In this document: one piece after another, positions 26,660 through 31,560 of the stretch
Layout of the letters: each line of letters starts with the position of its first letter
How positions within the stretch are numbered: the stretch's first letter is position 1
NCBI GenBank assembly: GCA_003054665.1
Contig: QAYY01000001.1
Span: 547,501 to 611,500 of the forward strand
Direction: 5' to 3'
Source: Opitutaceae bacterium EW11
GTDB lineage: Bacteria > Verrucomicrobiota > Verrucomicrobiia > Opitutales > Opitutaceae
DNA: 64,000 bases
Translations under genes and position numbers: made by a program
Notes under the pieces: generated by a model
Told to the model about the DNA's origin: nothing
What the model saw: only the letters and a program-made list of their open reading frames with translations
Databases searched by the model: none

Positions 26660-26686
26660 GAGCCGACCGGTGCGCCCGGTCGGCTC
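26660..26686 (-). terminator. GC-rich hairpin at the end of the sigma-factor gene
   Basis: GAGCCGACCGG / CCGGTCGGCTC, an 11-base-pair stem with a 5-base loop, begins right at the sigma-factor stop codon. No T run follows on the minus strand, so it may be a pausing, processing or stability hairpin within the operon and not a full terminator. Confidence 0.4.
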
Positions 26687-27386
26687 AAGGGCTGCCAATC
26701 AACGACCGCCAAAGCGCGAGCACCTGGAAATCGGAGCGGAGTTTCTTTTCACCGGCTTCTCGGATCTGGCGGGCCCGCTCGCGCGAAACGCCGAGTTCGT
26801 CAGCGATCGCATCGAGGGTCACCTCGTCCAAGTAGTACCGGCGCAGCGCAAACGCCTGGTTTGCTGGCAGGCGAGCCACGGCGCCAAGTAAGGCTGATGC
26901 GATCTCCTGCCCGTCCACTGCTTCCGCGGGAGACGGAGCGCCGGGGTCCGAAAGGGTTTCCCAGTCGAAACCCGACTCGCGTTCAGCGGCGGCGAGGTCG
27001 TCCAGAGCGCTCGCGGCCTCGCGTACCGAGAGGCCGGTCGCCGCGGCAATTTCCGAGGCGGTTGGCCGCACGTTTCCGACGAGGGAGAGCTTGGCCAGCG
27101 CACCGGAGACCGTGTTGAGCTGCACGCGCCGGCGCCGCGACACGGGATCGAGCCGTCGGAGTTCGTCGAGCATGGCGCCGCGAACGCAGACGAAGCAGTA
27201 GGCACGTACTTCGTCCGGAGCACCGGAGACGCGGCCCAGCGCCTGGACAAGCGCGATTTTCCCGACCGAGGCCAGGTCGTCGCGCTCGACATGCGAAGGA
27301 AGGCGGCGCGACAGCGTCGCCAGCGCTGTATCAACGATGTCGATATAGTCGGCGACGCGCACGCGTGCTGGAGCGAGTGTGTTCAT
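26685..27386 (-). CDS. RNA polymerase sigma factor, FliA/sigma-28-like
   Basis: A 233-residue sigma-70 family factor. Region 2 contains 'DDLASVGKIALVQALGRV' and 'CVRGAMLDELRRLDPVSRR', typical of the FliA/WhiG group. Region 3 follows ('RPTASEIAAATGLSVREA'), and region 4 has the helix-turn-helix 'VTLDAIADELGVSRERARQI' (about residues 190-209). No anti-sigma gene is evident. No flagellar genes are nearby; it lies between the HNH gene and the AAA ATPase, so it may drive this RNA-repair locus or the tRNA-like array. Confidence 0.9.
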   Translation of the reverse strand: MNTLAPARVRVADYIDIVDTALATLSRRLPSHVERDDLASVGKIALVQALGRVSGAPDEVRAYCFVCVRGAMLDELRRLDPVSRRRRVQLNTVSGALAKLSLVGNVRPTASEIAAATGLSVREAASALDDLAAAERESGFDWETLSDPGAPSPAEAVDGQEIASALLGAVARLPANQAFALRRYYLDEVTLDAIADELGVSRERARQIREAGEKKLRSDFQVLALWRSLIGSP

Positions 27387-27467: not shown

Positions 27468-28103
27468 TTAGTTCGTGAGGAAGTGTCGCCAGTCGGGATG
27501 TTTTGGCTCCCGAATCGCGGCGGCCGCGGGAAGCGGAGCCGGAGCTTTGGGTCGGCGGAGCAGGCGGAGGCCTGCTTCGTGCGGGAGCCGGTTGGCTTTG
27601 AGTGAGTTGATTTCCTTTTTTGCCCAAACGAGGTTTTCGAAAGTGTCTTTGCCTCCACGATCGCGGGGCACAACGTGGTCGAGATTGCCGCCGGACTTTC
27701 CGACGTGTTCCCCGGTGTACTGGCATACACCGCCGTCACGTTCGAAAACCGCCTGGCGCGTGACGCGCGGAACACGGATCGGCATCTTGTCGAACTGCGT
27801 CGCGATGATGACCGTGGGCACGCGGACCCGGAGTCGGGGTGTTGCGATCACGAAGTCGAACTCGCGGATCGGCAGCTTGATCCACTCCGCCCAGGGGAGC
27901 GGGTTGAGGTACAAGGGCCGGTCGAAGTCGAATGAACTGTCATCGAGCTTCGGATACGCCACGTCCATCCCGAGTGCCGGAGGCAAGTCGTCGCTCCCGC
28001 CGTTCAGCGCCACAAGGGCTTGCTTGACGGTGCGGTGGCCAATGACCTGCCAGGCTCGGTTGAGCGAGAGGACAATGGGTTTGTTGAGGACGTCGGTGGA
28101 CAT
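27468..28103 (-). CDS. HNH-type endonuclease
   Basis: A 211-residue protein. The C-terminal half has an HNH (beta-beta-alpha metal) fold: 'CQYTGEHVGKSGGNLDHVVP' with the general-base His near 143, then 'RDRGGKDTFENLVWA' with the Asn near 157. The N-terminal 110 residues ('VLSLNRAWQVIGHRTVKQAL') match the extra domain often found in front of this bacterial HNH type, whose substrate is not known. I start at the ATG at 28103. It is the gene nearest the tRNA-like array (170 bases), so an RNA or tRNA-gene-directed role should be considered, though most HNH enzymes cut DNA. Confidence 0.88.
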   Translation of the reverse strand: MSTDVLNKPIVLSLNRAWQVIGHRTVKQALVALNGGSDDLPPALGMDVAYPKLDDSSFDFDRPLYLNPLPWAEWIKLPIREFDFVIATPRLRVRVPTVIIATQFDKMPIRVPRVTRQAVFERDGGVCQYTGEHVGKSGGNLDHVVPRDRGGKDTFENLVWAKKEINSLKANRLPHEAGLRLLRRPKAPAPLPAAAAIREPKHPDWRHFLTN

Positions 28104-28273
28104 GGGATTGACTGGGTGAAAAGGGAATACGTCTCCGCGTGGGCATGCCCCCGCCGTGACGGTGTGTGTTCTGTTTTTGCGTTCCTCCGGTGGCCAAAAA
28201 CCGCCGTGCGAAAATGGATCTCCGCGCCCGTTACGCCGGCAGCCTCGGGTGGGCTGATCGGGCATCGCTGCAC

Positions 28274-28347
28274 CGGTCGTCGCGCAGGGTAACGCTCCCT
28301 GGTCTGCCGGTTATCGACCGATTGCTCTGCTTTTGAGCTACACGACG
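28274..28347 (-). tRNA. tRNA-like gene, anticodon GAT (Ile), atypical T- and D-loops
   Basis: 74 bases fold as a full cloverleaf: acceptor CGTCGTG/CGCGACG (one G-T pair), TA, D-stem GCTC/GAGC with loop AAAAGCA, anticodon loop TCGATAA (anticodon GAT, but C at 33), variable AGAC, T-stem CAGGG/CCCTG with loop AGCGTTA, A73, then CCG where CCA is usual. The anticodon stem has one mismatch (A-C) and one G-T pair. The D-loop lacks GG and the T-loop has GC where TTC gives T55-C56. It lies between the HNH gene and the zinc-ribbon ORF. Confidence 0.75.
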
Positions 28348-28386: not shown

Positions 28387-28557
28387 ATGGCGAAGAAACC
28401 CACCCGCGAGGAACGCGATCGAATGTGCACGCGCAAGCGGCGCTACGCGACACAGGCAGACGCGCTCACCGCGGCGGCGATCCTCGGCGTGGAGCGAAAC
28501 CGAACGGCGTACCGCTGCCCCCTTTGCGGGCGTTGGCACCTGTCTTCCGTGCGCTAA
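28387..28557 (+). CDS. 56-residue zinc-ribbon microprotein
   Basis: A small ORF, ATG to TAA, on the strand opposite to the tRNA-like genes around it. It is highly basic and ends in 'YRCPLCGRWHLSSVR'. The pattern C-x-x-K-R-x-Y ... Y-x-C-P-x-C-G-x-W-H-L is one I know from small zinc-ribbon proteins common in phages and mobile elements: Cys13 with the later Cys-x2-Cys and His could bind zinc. No clear ribosome-binding site precedes the ATG. A role in binding the tRNA-like RNAs or as a small regulator is possible; function unknown. Confidence 0.7.
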   Translation: MAKKPTREERDRMCTRKRRYATQADALTAAAILGVERNRTAYRCPLCGRWHLSSVR

Positions 28558-28592: not shown

Positions 28593-28668
28593 TGGCAGGC
28601 CCGGCCGGAGTTGCACCGGCACTGTTCCGCGTTCGAAGCACGGCCGACTAGCTTTTGCCGACGGGCCT
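28593..28668 (-). tRNA. tRNA-like gene, anticodon TCG (Arg), atypical T- and D-loops
   Basis: 76 bases: acceptor AGGCCCG/CGGGCCT (7 perfect pairs), TC, D-stem GGC/GTC with loop AAAAGCTA, anticodon stem CCGTG/CGCGG with loop CTTCGAA (anticodon TCG, normal T33), variable AACAGT, T-stem GCCGG/CCGGC with loop TGCAACT, G73 and encoded CCA. The D-loop has no GG, and T-loop position 55 is G. It ends the five-gene block (Pro, Gln, Leu, Arg, Arg), 7 bases after the neighbouring Arg element. Confidence 0.8.
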
Positions 28669-28675
28669 TTGAAAG

Positions 28676-28750
28676 TGGTCCCTCCACGAGGACTCGCACC
28701 TCGATCTCAAGCTTCGCGGGCTTGTGTCCTGGCTCTTGGACGATGGAGAG
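28676..28750 (-). tRNA. tRNA-like gene, anticodon GCG (Arg), C33, atypical T- and D-loops
   Basis: 75 bases: acceptor CTCTCCA/TGGAGGG (one G-T pair), TC, D-stem GTCC/GGAC with loop AAGAGCCA, A26, anticodon stem CAAGC/GCTTG with loop CCGCGAA (anticodon GCG), variable AGAT, T-stem CGAGG/CCTCG with loop TGCGAGT, A73, encoded CCA. Position 33 is C, where nearly all tRNAs have U. Bacteria usually read CGN-arginine codons with an ACG anticodon, so GCG is unusual as well. Confidence 0.8.
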
Positions 28751-28793
28751 AAAGCGGAGGCCGGTTGGGCCTTCCATCATGCGAAACGAAAGT

Positions 28794-28879
28794 TGGTGCG
28801 GGCGGAGGGAATCGCACCCTCACGAGCTTGCGCTCATCGGCATCTCGGGCCGAAGCGTCTACTGTTCCGCCACGTCCGC
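28794..28879 (-). tRNA. tRNA-like gene, anticodon GAG (Leu), class II with long variable arm
   Basis: 86 bases: acceptor GCGGACG/CGCCCGC (one A-C mismatch), TG, D-stem GCG/CGC with loop GAACAGTAGA, anticodon stem TCGGC/GCCGA with loop CCGAGAT (anticodon GAG, C33), long variable arm with GAGC/GCTC stem and GCAA loop, T-stem GAGGG/CCCTC with loop TGCGATT, A73, encoded CCA. The long arm is the class II mark expected for leucine, so identity features are kept although the elbow motifs are not. A 43-base spacer holding a hairpin separates it from the Arg GCG element. Confidence 0.8.
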
Positions 28880-28887
28880 AAAGTCTT

Positions 28888-28962
28888 CGGCAGCGGCGCG
28901 AGGACTCGCACCTGCAGCCACGGATTCAAAGTCCGCCGTCCGTCTGGCAGGACGGCACCGCA
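28888..28962 (-). tRNA. tRNA-like gene, anticodon TTG (Gln), atypical T- and D-loops
   Basis: 75 bases: acceptor TGCGGTG/CGCCGCT with T1-T72 unpaired, CC, D-stem GTCC/GGAC with loop TGCCAGAC, anticodon stem GCGGA/TCCGT with loop CTTTGAA (anticodon TTG), variable GGCT, T-stem GCAGG/CCTCG (two mismatches) with loop TGCGAGT, G73, then CCG in place of CCA. A weak first pair and G73 are glutamine identity features. This is the least well paired of the five-gene block. Confidence 0.75.
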
Positions 28963-28967
28963 AAGAA

Positions 28968-29044
28968 TGGTCAGGGTGACAGGACTTGCACCTGCATGAT
29001 CTCCCTTCCGAGGGGAGTCGCCGACTAGTTGGCACCACACCCTG
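28968..29044 (-). tRNA. tRNA-like gene, anticodon CGG (Pro), atypical T- and D-loops
   Basis: 77 bases: acceptor CAGGGTG/CACCCTG (7 perfect pairs), TG, D-stem TGCC/GGCG with loop AACTAGTC, anticodon stem CTCCC/GGGAG with loop CTCGGAA (anticodon CGG), variable ATCAT, T-stem GCAGG/CCTGT with loop TGCAAGT, A73, encoded CCA. It is the first gene of the five-gene block in the direction of transcription and is 5 bases from the Gln element. D-loop GG is missing and T-loop position 55 is G. Confidence 0.82.
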
Positions 29045-29099: not shown

Positions 29100-29195
29100 T
29101 TAGCGGGTCTGCGGACGACGCCTGTAGTCGGCACGTGCAACCAGCACGAGACCGACAACGACGATCCACGCGACCACGAGGGCAACAGCGCTCAT
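29100..29195 (-). CDS. 31-residue single-span membrane microprotein
   Basis: ATG to TAA, encoding one hydrophobic helix ('ALVVAWIVVVGLVLVA') followed by a basic tail ('DYRRRPQTR'). A ribosome-binding-site-like AAAGGA lies 6 bases upstream of the ATG. It precedes the tRNA-like block on the same strand. Positive residues after the helix suggest an N-out/C-in orientation. It is a plausible toxin-like or accessory peptide; no family recognised. Confidence 0.55.
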   Translation of the reverse strand: MSAVALVVAWIVVVGLVLVARADYRRRPQTR

Positions 29196-29394: not shown

Positions 29395-29464
29395 TGCGGG
29401 AGTGGGAGTCGCGCCCACGGCAACGTGGCTTATGAGACCAGTCGGATCGCTCGATCTTCCCGCA
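29395..29464 (-). tRNA. tRNA-like gene, anticodon CAT (Met or Ile2), weaker cloverleaf
   Basis: 70 bases: acceptor TGCGGGA/TCCCGCA (7 perfect pairs), AG, D-stem TCG/CGA with loop AGCGATC, four-pair anticodon stem with loop CTCATAA (anticodon CAT), variable GTTGCC, T-stem GTGGG/CCCAC with loop CGCGACT. It shares G55-C56 and the absence of D-loop GG with the others. No base separates D- and anticodon stems, and CCA is not encoded (CCTC follows). It lies 330 bases upstream of the main block. Confidence 0.55.
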
Positions 29465-30248
29465 AAAATGGATACCGCGGCTCAGGTTCTTCGCTGTGGG
29501 AGGACTTCTCCCACAGCCGTCCTCAGTCACCGCGAGAGGCCGCAAACGTCGGCGCGTCGTCGGGACAGAAGATATGTCGTCCTGGAGGCGTCGCGACGTG
29601 TCCGCGACGCCACGACCTTCCGATCAGCAATCGTCCAGGAAATCAGCCCCTGCCGGCTTCGGCCGCCGACTGGCTACAGATGAAATCCGAAGGGGCATGC
29701 GGACTCTGGCCTCGGATTCACAGCCAGCGCTCTGTTCAAACAGAAATGGTCGCCTCACCGTCTGGTCTTGGGGCCGCTCTGGATTGGAGACAATCACCAG
29801 CGGTCCTGCGTCACCAGACGCGAAGGCGAATTCGCGCGGAGGACTCGGGACCCAATAACATAACAATCTGTCGGTCCTCAGCCCATGCGCGGGAAATTGA
29901 AACGCGTGGCCGGCATCGCCGTTTGACGCTCGAAGGCGCACCACGCGTGTTGGGAACGCACGCGGCGTTCCGATATTGTTCGGAGCGCCGCCCGCGTGGC
30001 GGGCACCCGCCCTCCTCACCCCTCGCGGGGCTCGGGGCTGGCGCCATCTACGCGCTGCGCGCTCCGTCGCAAAAAGAACACACACCGTCAGCCCTATCGA
30101 AAGACGTGTGTCGCTCGGATTGGTCGGCCGCGGGATTTTTGTGCGGACGTTGGCTGATCGAAATGGGCTCAGCGGTGAAGCCACTTACGGAATCTTGAAA
30201 TTGAAACGAGCTCTGGGCTCGGTTCCGGAAGCGGCTGTGCGCAGGCAC
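29465..30248. other. Gene-poor stretch rich in hairpins
   Basis: I see no believable protein gene; the long plus-strand frame is arginine-rich and unlike a protein. Perfect hairpins stand out: GCTGTGGGAG/CTCCCACAGC at 29493-29517 (10 pairs) and GGCGTCGCG/CGCGACGCC at 29587-29611 (9 pairs), the latter enclosed by TCCTGGA (29580-29586) and TCCAGGA (29634-29640) as in a tRNA acceptor. It may hold non-coding RNAs belonging to the array downstream. Confidence 0.4.
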
Positions 30249-30327
30249 AAAAAAAACCACTTCCGGGTGGGAAGTGGCCGCGTAGGGCTACGAAGACTAC
30301 CTTCGTGAGCTACGTGGTTCCACTTCC
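30249..30327 (-). promoter_or_regulatory. Terminator with competing upstream pairing (attenuator or small RNA end)
   Basis: On the minus strand three 8-base segments occur in order: GGAAGTGG (30327-30320), CCACTTCC (30277-30270) and GGAAGTGG (30264-30257), then eight T (30256-30249). Segments 2 and 3 make an intrinsic terminator with a 5-base loop. Segments 1 and 2 can pair instead, enclosing a further stem (CGTAG/CTACG and ACGAAG/CTTCGT). This is the layout of an attenuator, or of a small RNA with its terminator. No minus-strand ORF lies upstream of it; the tRNA-like array and RtcB operon lie downstream. Confidence 0.6.
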
Positions 30328-30648
30328 TTTGAGATGGGCATAGCCGGACCGCGTATTCGCGAGTCGTTCACTATGCCGTGTCGCTTGCCCCGTCGGCGTC
30401 ATGCACGACCAACGAGGAGTCCTGGACAGGATTCGTCCTGTAACAATGGGTCGTGACGGTTTCATGGCAGAGGTGTGAGACGTTTGAGTGTTCGAAGAGG
30501 TAAACGGATTCAGCGGATTGAAAATCAAGAGGCGTTCTGAAGATTTTCTGGATTTCTTCTCCCGCCGCTCCGGACAACACGGCGGAGACTACCGAAACAG
30601 CCGGAATCTTGCCATGCAGATTCTGGCAGTTTACCTGACTACGCGATC
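30328..30648. other. Region upstream of the LysR gene
   Basis: No gene seen. It should contain the plus-strand promoter of the LysR gene and possibly the start of the minus-strand RNA that ends at 30249. I cannot point to a clear -35/-10 pair. Confidence 0.3.
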
Positions 30649-31560
30649 ATGTTTGAAAACCTATTCTCGGAGCGCGGACTCTCTCTCGATCGGATGAAAG
30701 TACTCGTCGAGGTTCAGGCCGCCGGAAGCATTGCGCAAGCGGCCCCGGGCGATCCTGTAAGGCAGAGTCAATACAGCAGGCAGTTGCGCGAGCTCTCGGA
30801 GTTTTTCGGCTGCGAGGTGGCGCAGCGTCGTGGGAAAGTGCTCAAGCTCACGGAGCGCGGTGAACGCCTGGCCCAGCTGGCTCGCGAACAGCTCCGCTCG
30901 CTCGACGATTTCCGTGCCGAATGCCAGGGCGAGACCGCAGTATTCACGATAGGCGCGGGAGATAGCCTGATCCAATGGCTCGTTATTCCACGGCTGAGCG
31001 AGGTATTGGCTGAGTTTCCGGGGACGCGTTTTGCGACCTCCAATCTCCGAACCAACGAAATCGTCCAGCAGCTCACGGACGGTCGGCTCGATTTTGGCAT
31101 CATTCGCAAAAACGCCATGGCCCAGGGGCTCAGGTCTGCCCCACTGGGGCGAGTCACGTACGTTGCGATCGTGCCAACGGCCCTGGCACGCAAGGGCGGC
31201 GTCGAATTAGAGCATGCGTTCGCCGAGCTGCCATTGGCTACACAGACGACGGACGGGCAGTTCTCGATGGGCCTGCGAGAACTCGCGGAGACGCTGGATG
31301 TGGCACTGTCGCCCGCAATTTCGTGCCAGTCTTTTCCCCAAACGATCGCAGCGGTTCGCACAGGGAAGTTCTGGGCCATCGTCCCCTCGATCGCCGTGCG
31401 GGAGCTTCCCGCTCACTCCGTGCATTGCGTCCAGGACCCGCACCTAAGGTCGCTGGCCCGTGAAGCCATGTTGGCCTGGAACCCGCGGCTTACGCGGATT
31501 CGTCCCAACGCGACTCGCATCGCAACCTCATTGAGCACGCGATTGAGGCTCCAAGCATGA
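30649..31560 (+). CDS. LysR-like transcriptional regulator
   Basis: A 303-residue protein. The N-terminal part is a winged helix of LysR type ('LSLDRMKVLVEVQAAGSIAQ', 'SQYSRQLRELSEFFGCEVAQ'), followed by a substrate-binding domain ('VIPRLSEVLAEFPGTRF', 'DGRLDFGIIRKNAMAQGL'). The recognition helix region 'PGDPVRQSQYSRQL' differs a little from classic members. It stands alone between the hairpin-rich region and tRNA-Val, so its target is unknown; regulation of the RNA locus is possible but unsupported. Confidence 0.85.
   Translation: MFENLFSERGLSLDRMKVLVEVQAAGSIAQAAPGDPVRQSQYSRQLRELSEFFGCEVAQRRGKVLKLTERGERLAQLAREQLRSLDDFRAECQGETAVFTIGAGDSLIQWLVIPRLSEVLAEFPGTRFATSNLRTNEIVQQLTDGRLDFGIIRKNAMAQGLRSAPLGRVTYVAIVPTALARKGGVELEHAFAELPLATQTTDGQFSMGLRELAETLDVALSPAISCQSFPQTIAAVRTGKFWAIVPSIAVRELPAHSVHCVQDPHLRSLAREAMLAWNPRLTRIRPNATRIATSLSTRLRLQA

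Follow-up and report, generated by a model that had tools for sequence, protein, structure and literature searches.

Among the described systems closest to the locus reported here is the trn operon of Anabaena PCC 7120, a set of 26 transfer RNA (tRNA) genes on a megaplasmid that is induced by translation inhibitors and repressed by TrcR, with HNH genes among those raised in the trcR mutant (PMC10272220). Phage tRNAs have been argued to evade host anticodon nucleases (PMC10264068; PMC11555353), virus tRNA clusters, some with HNH genes, have been surveyed (PMC6409571), and a specialised tRNA-Gly of Staphylococcus has been mentioned (PMC4810233). The subject of this report is an array of seven tRNA genes in a 64,000-nucleotide stretch (hereafter the window) of the 6.4 Mb genome of Opitutaceae bacterium EW11 (contig QAYY01000001.1, positions 547,501 to 611,500), together with its relatives in other bacteria and in phages; the trait of these arrays is almost certainly a rewired elbow, the contact between D-loop and T-loop.

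Like the Anabaena-type L-arrays, these are dense tRNA operons that come on top of the housekeeping set (43 other distinct tRNAs in the window genome), with an HNH gene in or beside them, and they are apparently off in normal growth, as predicted here from a leader and a terminator. Unlike L-arrays, they combine the altered elbow with a predicted attenuator built on a leader open reading frame (ORF) and with a sigma-factor gene behind the array; the comparison was made with six fetched normal-elbow arrays rather than with the Anabaena 7120 sequences. They resemble the nuclease-evading phage tRNAs in being phage-borne and altered in a way that may spare them from host tRNases, but here the elbow of nearly all isotypes is changed and not single anticodon loops. 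Our preferred reading, to which we give a probability of about 55 per cent, is that such arrays are inducible reserve tRNA operons whose rewired elbow probably allows escape from a tRNA-depleting agent, and that the window holds a decayed remnant of one. The tRNA genes of the window are as follows.

29395..29464, minus strand: tRNA-Met(CAU), T-loop CGCGACT, no encoded CCA
28968..29044, minus strand: tRNA-Pro(CGG), D-loop AACTAGTC, T-loop TGCAAGT, CCA encoded
28891..28962, minus strand: tRNA-Gln(UUG), D-loop TGCCAGAC, T-loop TGCGAGT, CCG in place of CCA, boundaries set by eye
28794..28879, minus strand: tRNA-Leu(GAG), AG in D-loop, T-loop TGCGATT, C33, CCA encoded
28676..28750, minus strand: tRNA-Arg(GCG), D-loop AAGAGCCA, T-loop TGCGAGT, C33, CCA encoded
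28593..28668, minus strand: tRNA-Arg(UCG), D-loop AAAAGCTA, T-loop TGCAACT, CCA encoded
28278..28347, minus strand: tRNA-Ile(GAU), D-loop AAAAGCA, T-loop AGCGTTA, C33, CCA lost, absent from the ARAGORN list

A first-pass annotation of the window had reported G55 and C56 in all members, and the seven minus-strand cloverleaves bear this out, T-loop by T-loop; the range it gave, 28593-29044, holds five of the seven genes, with Met and Ile outside it. Its D-loop sequences also stand, with GG in none of the seven, but its conclusion that the 18-55 and 19-56 contacts are simply lost does not. All seven have AG, which that annotation passes over, in the Met D-loop at the very start of the loop, so that numbering is unsure there. 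The AG of array D-loops stands at the usual site of GG, as in AAAAGCA compared with AATGGTA. G55 is a trait of the array and not of the lineage, for the normal tRNAs of the genome, which the same annotation had named as the decisive comparison, have U55 in 43 of 43 cases. These 43 distinct non-array tRNAs (30 loci from a genome tRNA search and 13 fetched in addition) carry T54-U55-C56 in 42 cases and TTT in one, D-loop GG in 42 and U33 in all, while C33 replaces U33 in the window Ile, Arg(GCG) and Leu genes. The sole host tRNA lacking D-loop GG is a tRNA-Ala(CGC) (locus L026; GTTGATAG), whose T-loop, TTTGATC, means that 19-56 could still pair as A-U. A cloverleaf scan of 117,428 shuffled bases on both strands gave one match and none with CCA, which places the window cloverleaves beyond chance.

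The relatives, referred to below by locus (L) or genome (G) handles where they have to be told apart, show how the elbow has been altered. From 44 stretches with at least three rewired members (35 distinct places), 628 distinct CCA-bearing tRNAs were gathered, and positions 55-56 of their T-loops read G55-C56 in 558, UC in 23, GG in 18, GA in 12 and otherwise in 17; where the D-loop has seven bases and numbering is least ambiguous, A18-G19 is found in 139 of 170. Covariation was counted in a wider set of 796 distinct tRNAs with a score of at least 18, from 77 stretches with at least one G55-C56 tRNA. Here G55-C56 is partnered by AG in 537 tRNAs, by GG in 36 and by neither in 27, the remainder being GG with U55-C56 (140), AG with U55-C56 (4) and other T-loops (52). 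AG occurs within the D-loop of 572 of the 600 G55-C56 tRNAs, where shuffled loops would give 306 and at most 339, and GG within that of 140 of the 144 U55-C56 tRNAs. The same matching holds in 18 stretches hand-picked as mixed or outlying (AG/G55-C56 84, GG/U55-C56 124, GG/G55-C56 5, neither/G55-C56 3, AG/U55-C56 3, other T-loops 11).

Position 19 follows position 56 even where C56 is lost. A rule that puts A at 18 opposite G55, G at 18 opposite U55 and the complement of 56 at 19 predicts the 18-19 dinucleotide of 44 of the 48 non-C56 tRNAs (mean 23.2 and maximum 35 in 20,000 permutations), and two of the four misses allow a U-G wobble. In the relatives 19-56 is G-C or a compensated C-G, U-A or A-U, and the Arg(UCG) orthologues by themselves show G-C, C-G and U-A. 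Positions 54-58 covary as well among the G55 tRNAs (UA 418, GG 72, AU 66, CA 49, CC 19, other 10). D-loop and T-loop have therefore changed in step, as the first-pass annotation had claimed, and the covariation rules out an elbow whose contacts are lost and shows the folded elbow to be under selection. Instead of the canonical elongator elbow, G18-U55 with G19-C56, these tRNAs have A-G at 18-55 and a kept or compensated 19-56; that G18-U55 became A18-G55 as a trait of the array, with 19-56 remaining Watson-Crick, is close to certain from the pair counts, and A18 and G55 are presumed to face each other in a paired geometry.

Few features of biology are as conserved as the tRNA elbow, which the ribosome, RNase P and modification enzymes all recognise (PMC4810234). 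Loss of GG and of T-psi-C is known from tRNA-Pyl and mitochondrial tRNAs (non-canonical tRNA review, PMC7609411), and eukaryotic tRNA-Ala has unusual 15-48 and 54-58 pairs (PMC7566577); the portions of these two papers used here do not mention any full tRNA set in which the 18-55 pair is exchanged. No description of a G55 or A18 tRNA array was found among the titles and abstract openings listed in searches of open-licence literature. A near-complete natural tRNA set with a covarying alternative elbow shows which parts of the elbow can be exchanged, and translation research could draw on the arrays for tRNAs that can be told apart by their structure. The Steinberg group has reportedly worked on suppressor tRNAs, obtained by selection, that have alternative pairs at 54-58 and 18-55.

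The same counts bear on a simpler account, in which the arrays are ordinary L-arrays and A18-G55 is neutral or founder drift in an ancestral phage array, inherited with no protective role. The alternative 54-58 pairs (GG, AU, CA, CC) and C33 do accumulate as they would under relaxed constraint, and the HNH proteins with the CQYTG variant (see below) from the placed bacterial and phage rewired arrays form a single clade. Set against this are mixed arrays that hold both elbow types with matched loops, which suggests repeated switches, and the fact that nearly every isotype was changed at once; we regard drift as unlikely, though as deserving serious consideration. A cluster of pseudogenes with chance base changes is a far weaker proposition. 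It would suit the window, where three of seven genes lack CCA and a promoter-like block is altered, but the covariation, the identity elements and the encoded CCA of the relatives speak strongly against it, and we consider it very improbable.

Whether the rewired tRNAs are meant for the ribosome can be judged from their charging signals and from the amino acids they cover. Among the 582 distinct G55 array tRNAs whose amino acid has a tRNA in the host set, 516 share their discriminator base with a host tRNA for that amino acid, compared with a mean of 255.7 and a maximum of 287 on permutation. The G3:U70 pair of tRNA-Ala is present in 19 of 21 array tRNA-Ala and in one of 594 other array tRNAs, and a long variable arm marks Ser (32/32), Tyr (15/15) and Leu (50/61), with 16 of 507 elsewhere. 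The aminoacylation identity elements of canonical elongator tRNAs are accordingly present, save for the discriminator (N73) of most Glu and His and of part of the Arg and Phe tRNAs. At five of the 12 places counted (L075/L121, L081, L101, L108 and L094) G55 tRNAs alone supply all 20 amino acids, Trp, Cys, His and Met included, in these five bacterial loci; L082 and phage L132 reach 19 (L132 reaches 20 with its normal-elbow members), followed by L159 with 18, L095 and L157 with 17, L129 with 16 and L127 with 13, while the L127 contig together with its upstream stretch L336 covers 18 when all elbow types are counted. Some amino acids have several isoacceptors in the arrays. From these features it is likely that the array tRNAs are intended for charging and for ribosomal decoding.

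The first-pass annotation had instead considered a non-ribosomal role plausible, by comparison with Staphylococcus. tRNAs that serve cell-wall or other non-ribosomal peptide synthesis instead of translation would share the loss of U55 and GG, since the tRNA-Gly in question is said in that annotation to have a UGC T-loop and a D-loop change. That tRNA serves one amino acid and the cell wall, while the arrays supply 20 amino acids in five loci, several isoacceptors for some of them, the Ala G3:U70 pair and host-like discriminators; L075, L081, L101, L108 and L094 are not restricted to a cell-wall cross-bridge amino acid. A phage array also adjoins structural genes, and control by a translated leader is predicted. 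Full coverage and kept acylation signals therefore make a role confined to the cell wall unlikely, and of all the explanations weighed here the non-translating one is given the slimmest chance.

These counts depend on a purpose-made cloverleaf scanner, used because Rfam and ARAGORN detect only part of the arrays (in L121, ARAGORN finds 22 genes and the scanner 37 with CCA); a few of the anticodons it assigned, in Leu and Ser, appear to be out of register. A MAFFT alignment of six array tRNAs, with Leu left out, misplaced the stems, so pairs were counted by script from cloverleaf positions and not with a covariance model.

Ribosome-mediated attenuators of antibiotic-resistance and amino-acid operons consist of a translated leader, mutually exclusive hairpins and an intrinsic terminator. 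The region upstream of the array is predicted to have the same components, and differs in that the leader samples nearly all amino acids and in that the output would be a tRNA set and a sigma factor. Comparison was made across 16 places chosen for having a divergent LysR gene, a homologue of which stands upstream in 17 of 36 stretches, the window included (16 distinct places). In the window the relevant features are these.

30649..31560, plus strand: LysR-type regulator, divergent from the array (Pfam LysR_substrate 1e-24, HTH_1 9e-9)
30499..30531, minus strand: promoter-like block (TTGATT ... CCGTT) upstream of the leader, its -10 half altered in the window
30310..30465, minus strand: leader ORF of 51 amino acids using 18 of the 20 amino acids (D and F missing)
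30320..30327, minus strand: attenuator segment 1 (GGAAGTGG) in the last leader codons, repeating the terminator 3' arm
30247..30279, minus strand: intrinsic terminator (segments 2 and 3 and the U-run)

In most of the 16 aligned loci the promoter-like block reads CTTGATTT, about 15 nucleotides, TCCGTTGTAAC; the window has CCGTTTACC, L111 and L108 also deviate, and a generic sigma-70 scan called no promoter at 30499..30531. An intrinsic terminator precedes the array in all 16 LysR loci. In 14 of them a script located a leader ORF, 50-55 codons long, that stops some 25 bases short of the terminator, and in 13 an exact 7-base repeat of the terminator 3' arm lies near the leader end. In L111 the repeat and both arms share one changed base (GGAAGCG). 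Besides the window, leaders of 49-55 amino acids occur in 15 array loci. In a search upstream of 17 further stretches the only leader candidates were those of L091/L123 (a single place), of L088 (which coincides with L113) and of L107, that of L091/L123 being dissimilar, with 19 of 20 amino acids in 35 codons. For the window, the minimum-energy fold (z -3.85) contains the terminator and the centroid contains the antiterminator, in which segment 1 pairs with segment 2. The parts of a ribosome-controlled attenuator, a short leader ORF, a terminator and a competing antiterminator, are thus present by sequence, with mixed support from folding, and control of the array by leader translation is probable.

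The composition of the leaders points to what they might sense. Sixteen array-linked leaders (14 from LysR loci, with L107 and L347) use 19.4 different amino acids on average, nine of them all 20, where random draws of equal length give 17.2 and none of 3,000 draws is as high (p 0.0003); the leaders are homologous, with a median pairwise identity of 36 per cent, so that p values of this kind overstate their independence. Residues D, F and H stand at differing positions in related leaders, for example those of L100 and L102. This suggests a general sensor for shortage of any amino acid, an arrangement we have not seen described, although no literature search was made on that point.

Taken together, the preferred reading of an inducible reserve operon would work as follows. 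In intact relatives the operon would supply tRNAs for all 20 amino acids, charged and folded like ordinary ones, from an array that with its HNH gene is placed between a ribosome-controlled attenuator and a sigma-factor gene. A ribosome completing the leader would cover segment 1, allowing segments 2 and 3 to form the terminator and keeping the array off; when a leader amino acid is not supplied, or translation fails generally, segment 1 would pair with segment 2 and the array would be transcribed. With no uridine 55 to become pseudouridine, the set could survive a tRNase that recognises the T-loop or elbow, and might replace the ordinary tRNAs destroyed by such an agent. Known enzymes include a contact-dependent inhibition (CDI) toxin whose cut falls between the T and the pseudouridine of the T-loop (PMC9086364). 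That the altered elbow escapes an agent depleting ordinary tRNAs is a tentative part of this scheme, to which we give somewhat less than an even chance. It is rather less probable that the elbow type is a mark of self, under which an enzyme of host, phage or module destroys normal-elbow tRNAs, the marked set sustains translation, and the leader peptide, by probing for all 20 amino acids, activates this set once any one of the ordinary tRNAs is exhausted. If the set does resist tRNA-depleting enzymes, it would represent a whole-set strategy in the tRNA conflict between phage and host, going beyond changes to the anticodon loop.

A number of observations weigh against this scheme. No nuclease known to spare A18-G55 tRNAs was found, and HNH-linked arrays with normal elbows are known, so that reserve arrays in general need no rewiring. 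The elbow rule has exceptions in the 36 G55-C56 tRNAs with GG and the 27 with neither AG nor GG among all scored array tRNAs. C33, which is unusual for decoding, replaces U33 in 96 of the 634 G55 array tRNAs, where it is frequently accompanied by G34, and is absent from all 43 host tRNAs. N73 differs from the host in 66 of 582, mainly in Glu (19/28), His (20/27), Arg (11/60) and Phe (4/22). With regard to control, the selection of the 16 places by their LysR gene and the homology of the leaders both count, as do an L121 fold no better than shuffles (z -1.1), the missing exact copy of segment 1 in three of the 16 loci, and the 18 amino acids of the window's own leader. The leaders of 12 loci with no or one tRNA are slightly rich too (18.2 compared with 17.0 expected, p 0.001, one with all 20), a count affected by the choice of a long ORF where the extra attenuator loci offered several fitting ATG starts. 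Finally, no terminator with a leader was found within 1.5 kb upstream of the arrays L157, L159, L129, L156, L132, L329, L330, L331, L333, L334, L118, L119 and L116, several of which are short of upstream sequence.

The distribution of the arrays was followed through the HNH gene and through the tRNAs themselves. Of 99 other family genomes examined, 17 have close homologues of the window HNH protein (52-83 per cent), and a distant second HNH gene is present in most genomes. Named carriers are Geminisphaera, Lacunisphaera, Rariglobus, Ereboglobus, Pelagicoccus and unclassified Opitutaceae or Verrucomicrobia, the three Pelagicoccus stretches having few or no rewired tRNAs. Up to 40 cloverleaves adjoin the close homologues; among 19 relatives' stretches, three have no cloverleaves and two have one or two, some of these being ended by contig limits. 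The array of L075/L121 has 37 CCA-bearing tRNAs within about 3.5 kb, compared with the seven genes of the window copy. The T-arm/CCA pattern had at least one match in 85 of 387 genomes of the phylum, with its matches clustering in array genomes, within Opitutaceae as well as in further families of the class, and with scattered single matches elsewhere; a control pattern with spacing off by one base showed no such clustering in the 387 genomes. Six of these genomes were checked, of which G296, G311, G392 and G278 hold rewired arrays with one to three normal members each, G317 a mixed array of seven normal tRNAs and one rewired, and G293 a lone rewired tRNA.

Rewired arrays of 11 to 41 cloverleaves are present in six of 40 viral contigs with an HNH relative (L127, L129, L132, L156, L157 and L159). 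Beyond its array, L132 has a portal gene of T4-like type and a tail-fibre gene, which mark it as a phage. Mixed arrays were seen in viral contigs L240, L244, L248 and L211, among the pattern matches listed, the T-arm pattern being too unspecific in viral contigs for more. In the HNH tree, phages L127, L132 and L156 join the Opitutaceae core, with a fork support of only 84/67, and L129, L157 and L159 fall outside it; for three rows, whose branches are long, the placement is unsure. The presence of such sets in phages makes it probable that the trait has passed between phages and bacteria. A separate observation is that L130, L150, L153 and similar viral contigs encode proteins related to the array HNH protein (about 47 per cent identity with that of the window), and that no tRNA array was found in their available stretches.

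Rewiring as a general property of HNH-linked arrays was also considered and rejected. Of 67 phage or plasmid records with an HNH match, 12 were fetched, six with an array in the stretch and six without, and the six arrays (Nostoc, Mycobacterium, Paenarthrobacter, Variovorax and phages S-CBWM1 and Tunturi_5) are almost wholly UUC/GG. The genes behind the window array are the following.

27468..28103, minus strand: array-linked HNH protein (Pfam HNH_4 3e-6), CQYTG variant with the second Cys of the CxxC motif replaced
26685..27386, minus strand: sigma-70 family factor downstream of HNH (Pfam Sigma70_r4 2e-9, Sigma70_r2 2e-7)

Another explanation is escape at the level of DNA, in which the elbow change removes the conserved T-arm (GGTTCRANTCC) used in tRNA genes by integrases and some endonucleases, possibly by the array's own HNH protein, and the D-loop compensates. 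The T-arm of tRNA genes is a common integration site, and the HNH gene adjoins the arrays, but genes of the same broad HNH family also stand next to arrays whose T-arms are normal (Nostoc, Mycobacterium and phage Tunturi_5), and the array HNH proteins are without the second Cys of the CxxC motif; this explanation is improbable.

The sigma-70-type gene accompanies 21 of 33 stretches of HNH carriers and none of the 40 viral stretches. A terminator search of 150 family genomes gave 19 matches, comprising six known array loci, L347 as a seventh, and 12 (L337-L346, L348 and L349) where the array is missing or reduced to one tRNA and the leader-ORF attenuator stands upstream of a sigma-70-type gene, at less than 100 bases in five (L337, L345, L346, L348 and L349) and at roughly 370 to 1,300 in seven. 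Among these 13 further attenuator loci a LysR gene was found only at L347, which has three array tRNAs. The sigma factor of the 12 loci is apparently itself under translational control. Because the attenuator precedes the sigma gene where the array is missing, the array and HNH gene look like an insertion into an existing translation-controlled sigma operon; alternatively, it is possible that the array was lost in those 12 relatives. Inverted repeats flank the tRNA genes.

30075..30086, minus strand: flanking inverted repeat GGTGTGTGTTCT, upstream copy, pairs with 28161-28172
28161..28172, plus strand: flanking inverted repeat, downstream copy

The two matches in the window compare with 0.09 expected, and among 25 other stretches both copies are present in nine (L094, L095, L099, L108, L111, L080, L081, L120 and L121), one in five and none in 11. 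One possible role of these repeats is to form a long stem that closes the transcript, another is to mark the insert. In some stretches the 12 bases are part of a longer GACGGTGTGTGTTCTTTTTTGCG, and the copies would be complementary if in one transcript. The window copy itself retains open leader, HNH, sigma and LysR reading frames and its terminator, and has seven tRNAs left, three of them without CCA, an altered promoter-like block and a leader without D and F, so that it is best seen as a decaying remnant.

The block contains further genes in some relatives. A TROVE-like gene (Ro-type, RNA-binding) lies in eight bacterial stretches and three viral contigs (L094, L099, L100, L102, L080, L107, L108, L111, L127, L132 and L156), the family having been tested in L127 and L132 and the remaining carriers assigned by sequence similarity, and phage L127 also has an RNA ligase gene, which fits a theme of RNA damage. 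Two small reading frames remain within the window array.

29100..29195, minus strand: 31-codon ORF for a hydrophobic peptide between the Met and Pro tRNAs, followed by a GC-rich hairpin
28387-28557, plus strand: 56-codon ORF within the array and antisense to it, with a CxxC pair

Reading frames similar to the latter (35-66 per cent) are found in the Ereboglobus stretch L111 and others, and also in many array-free viral contigs that have an HNH relative.

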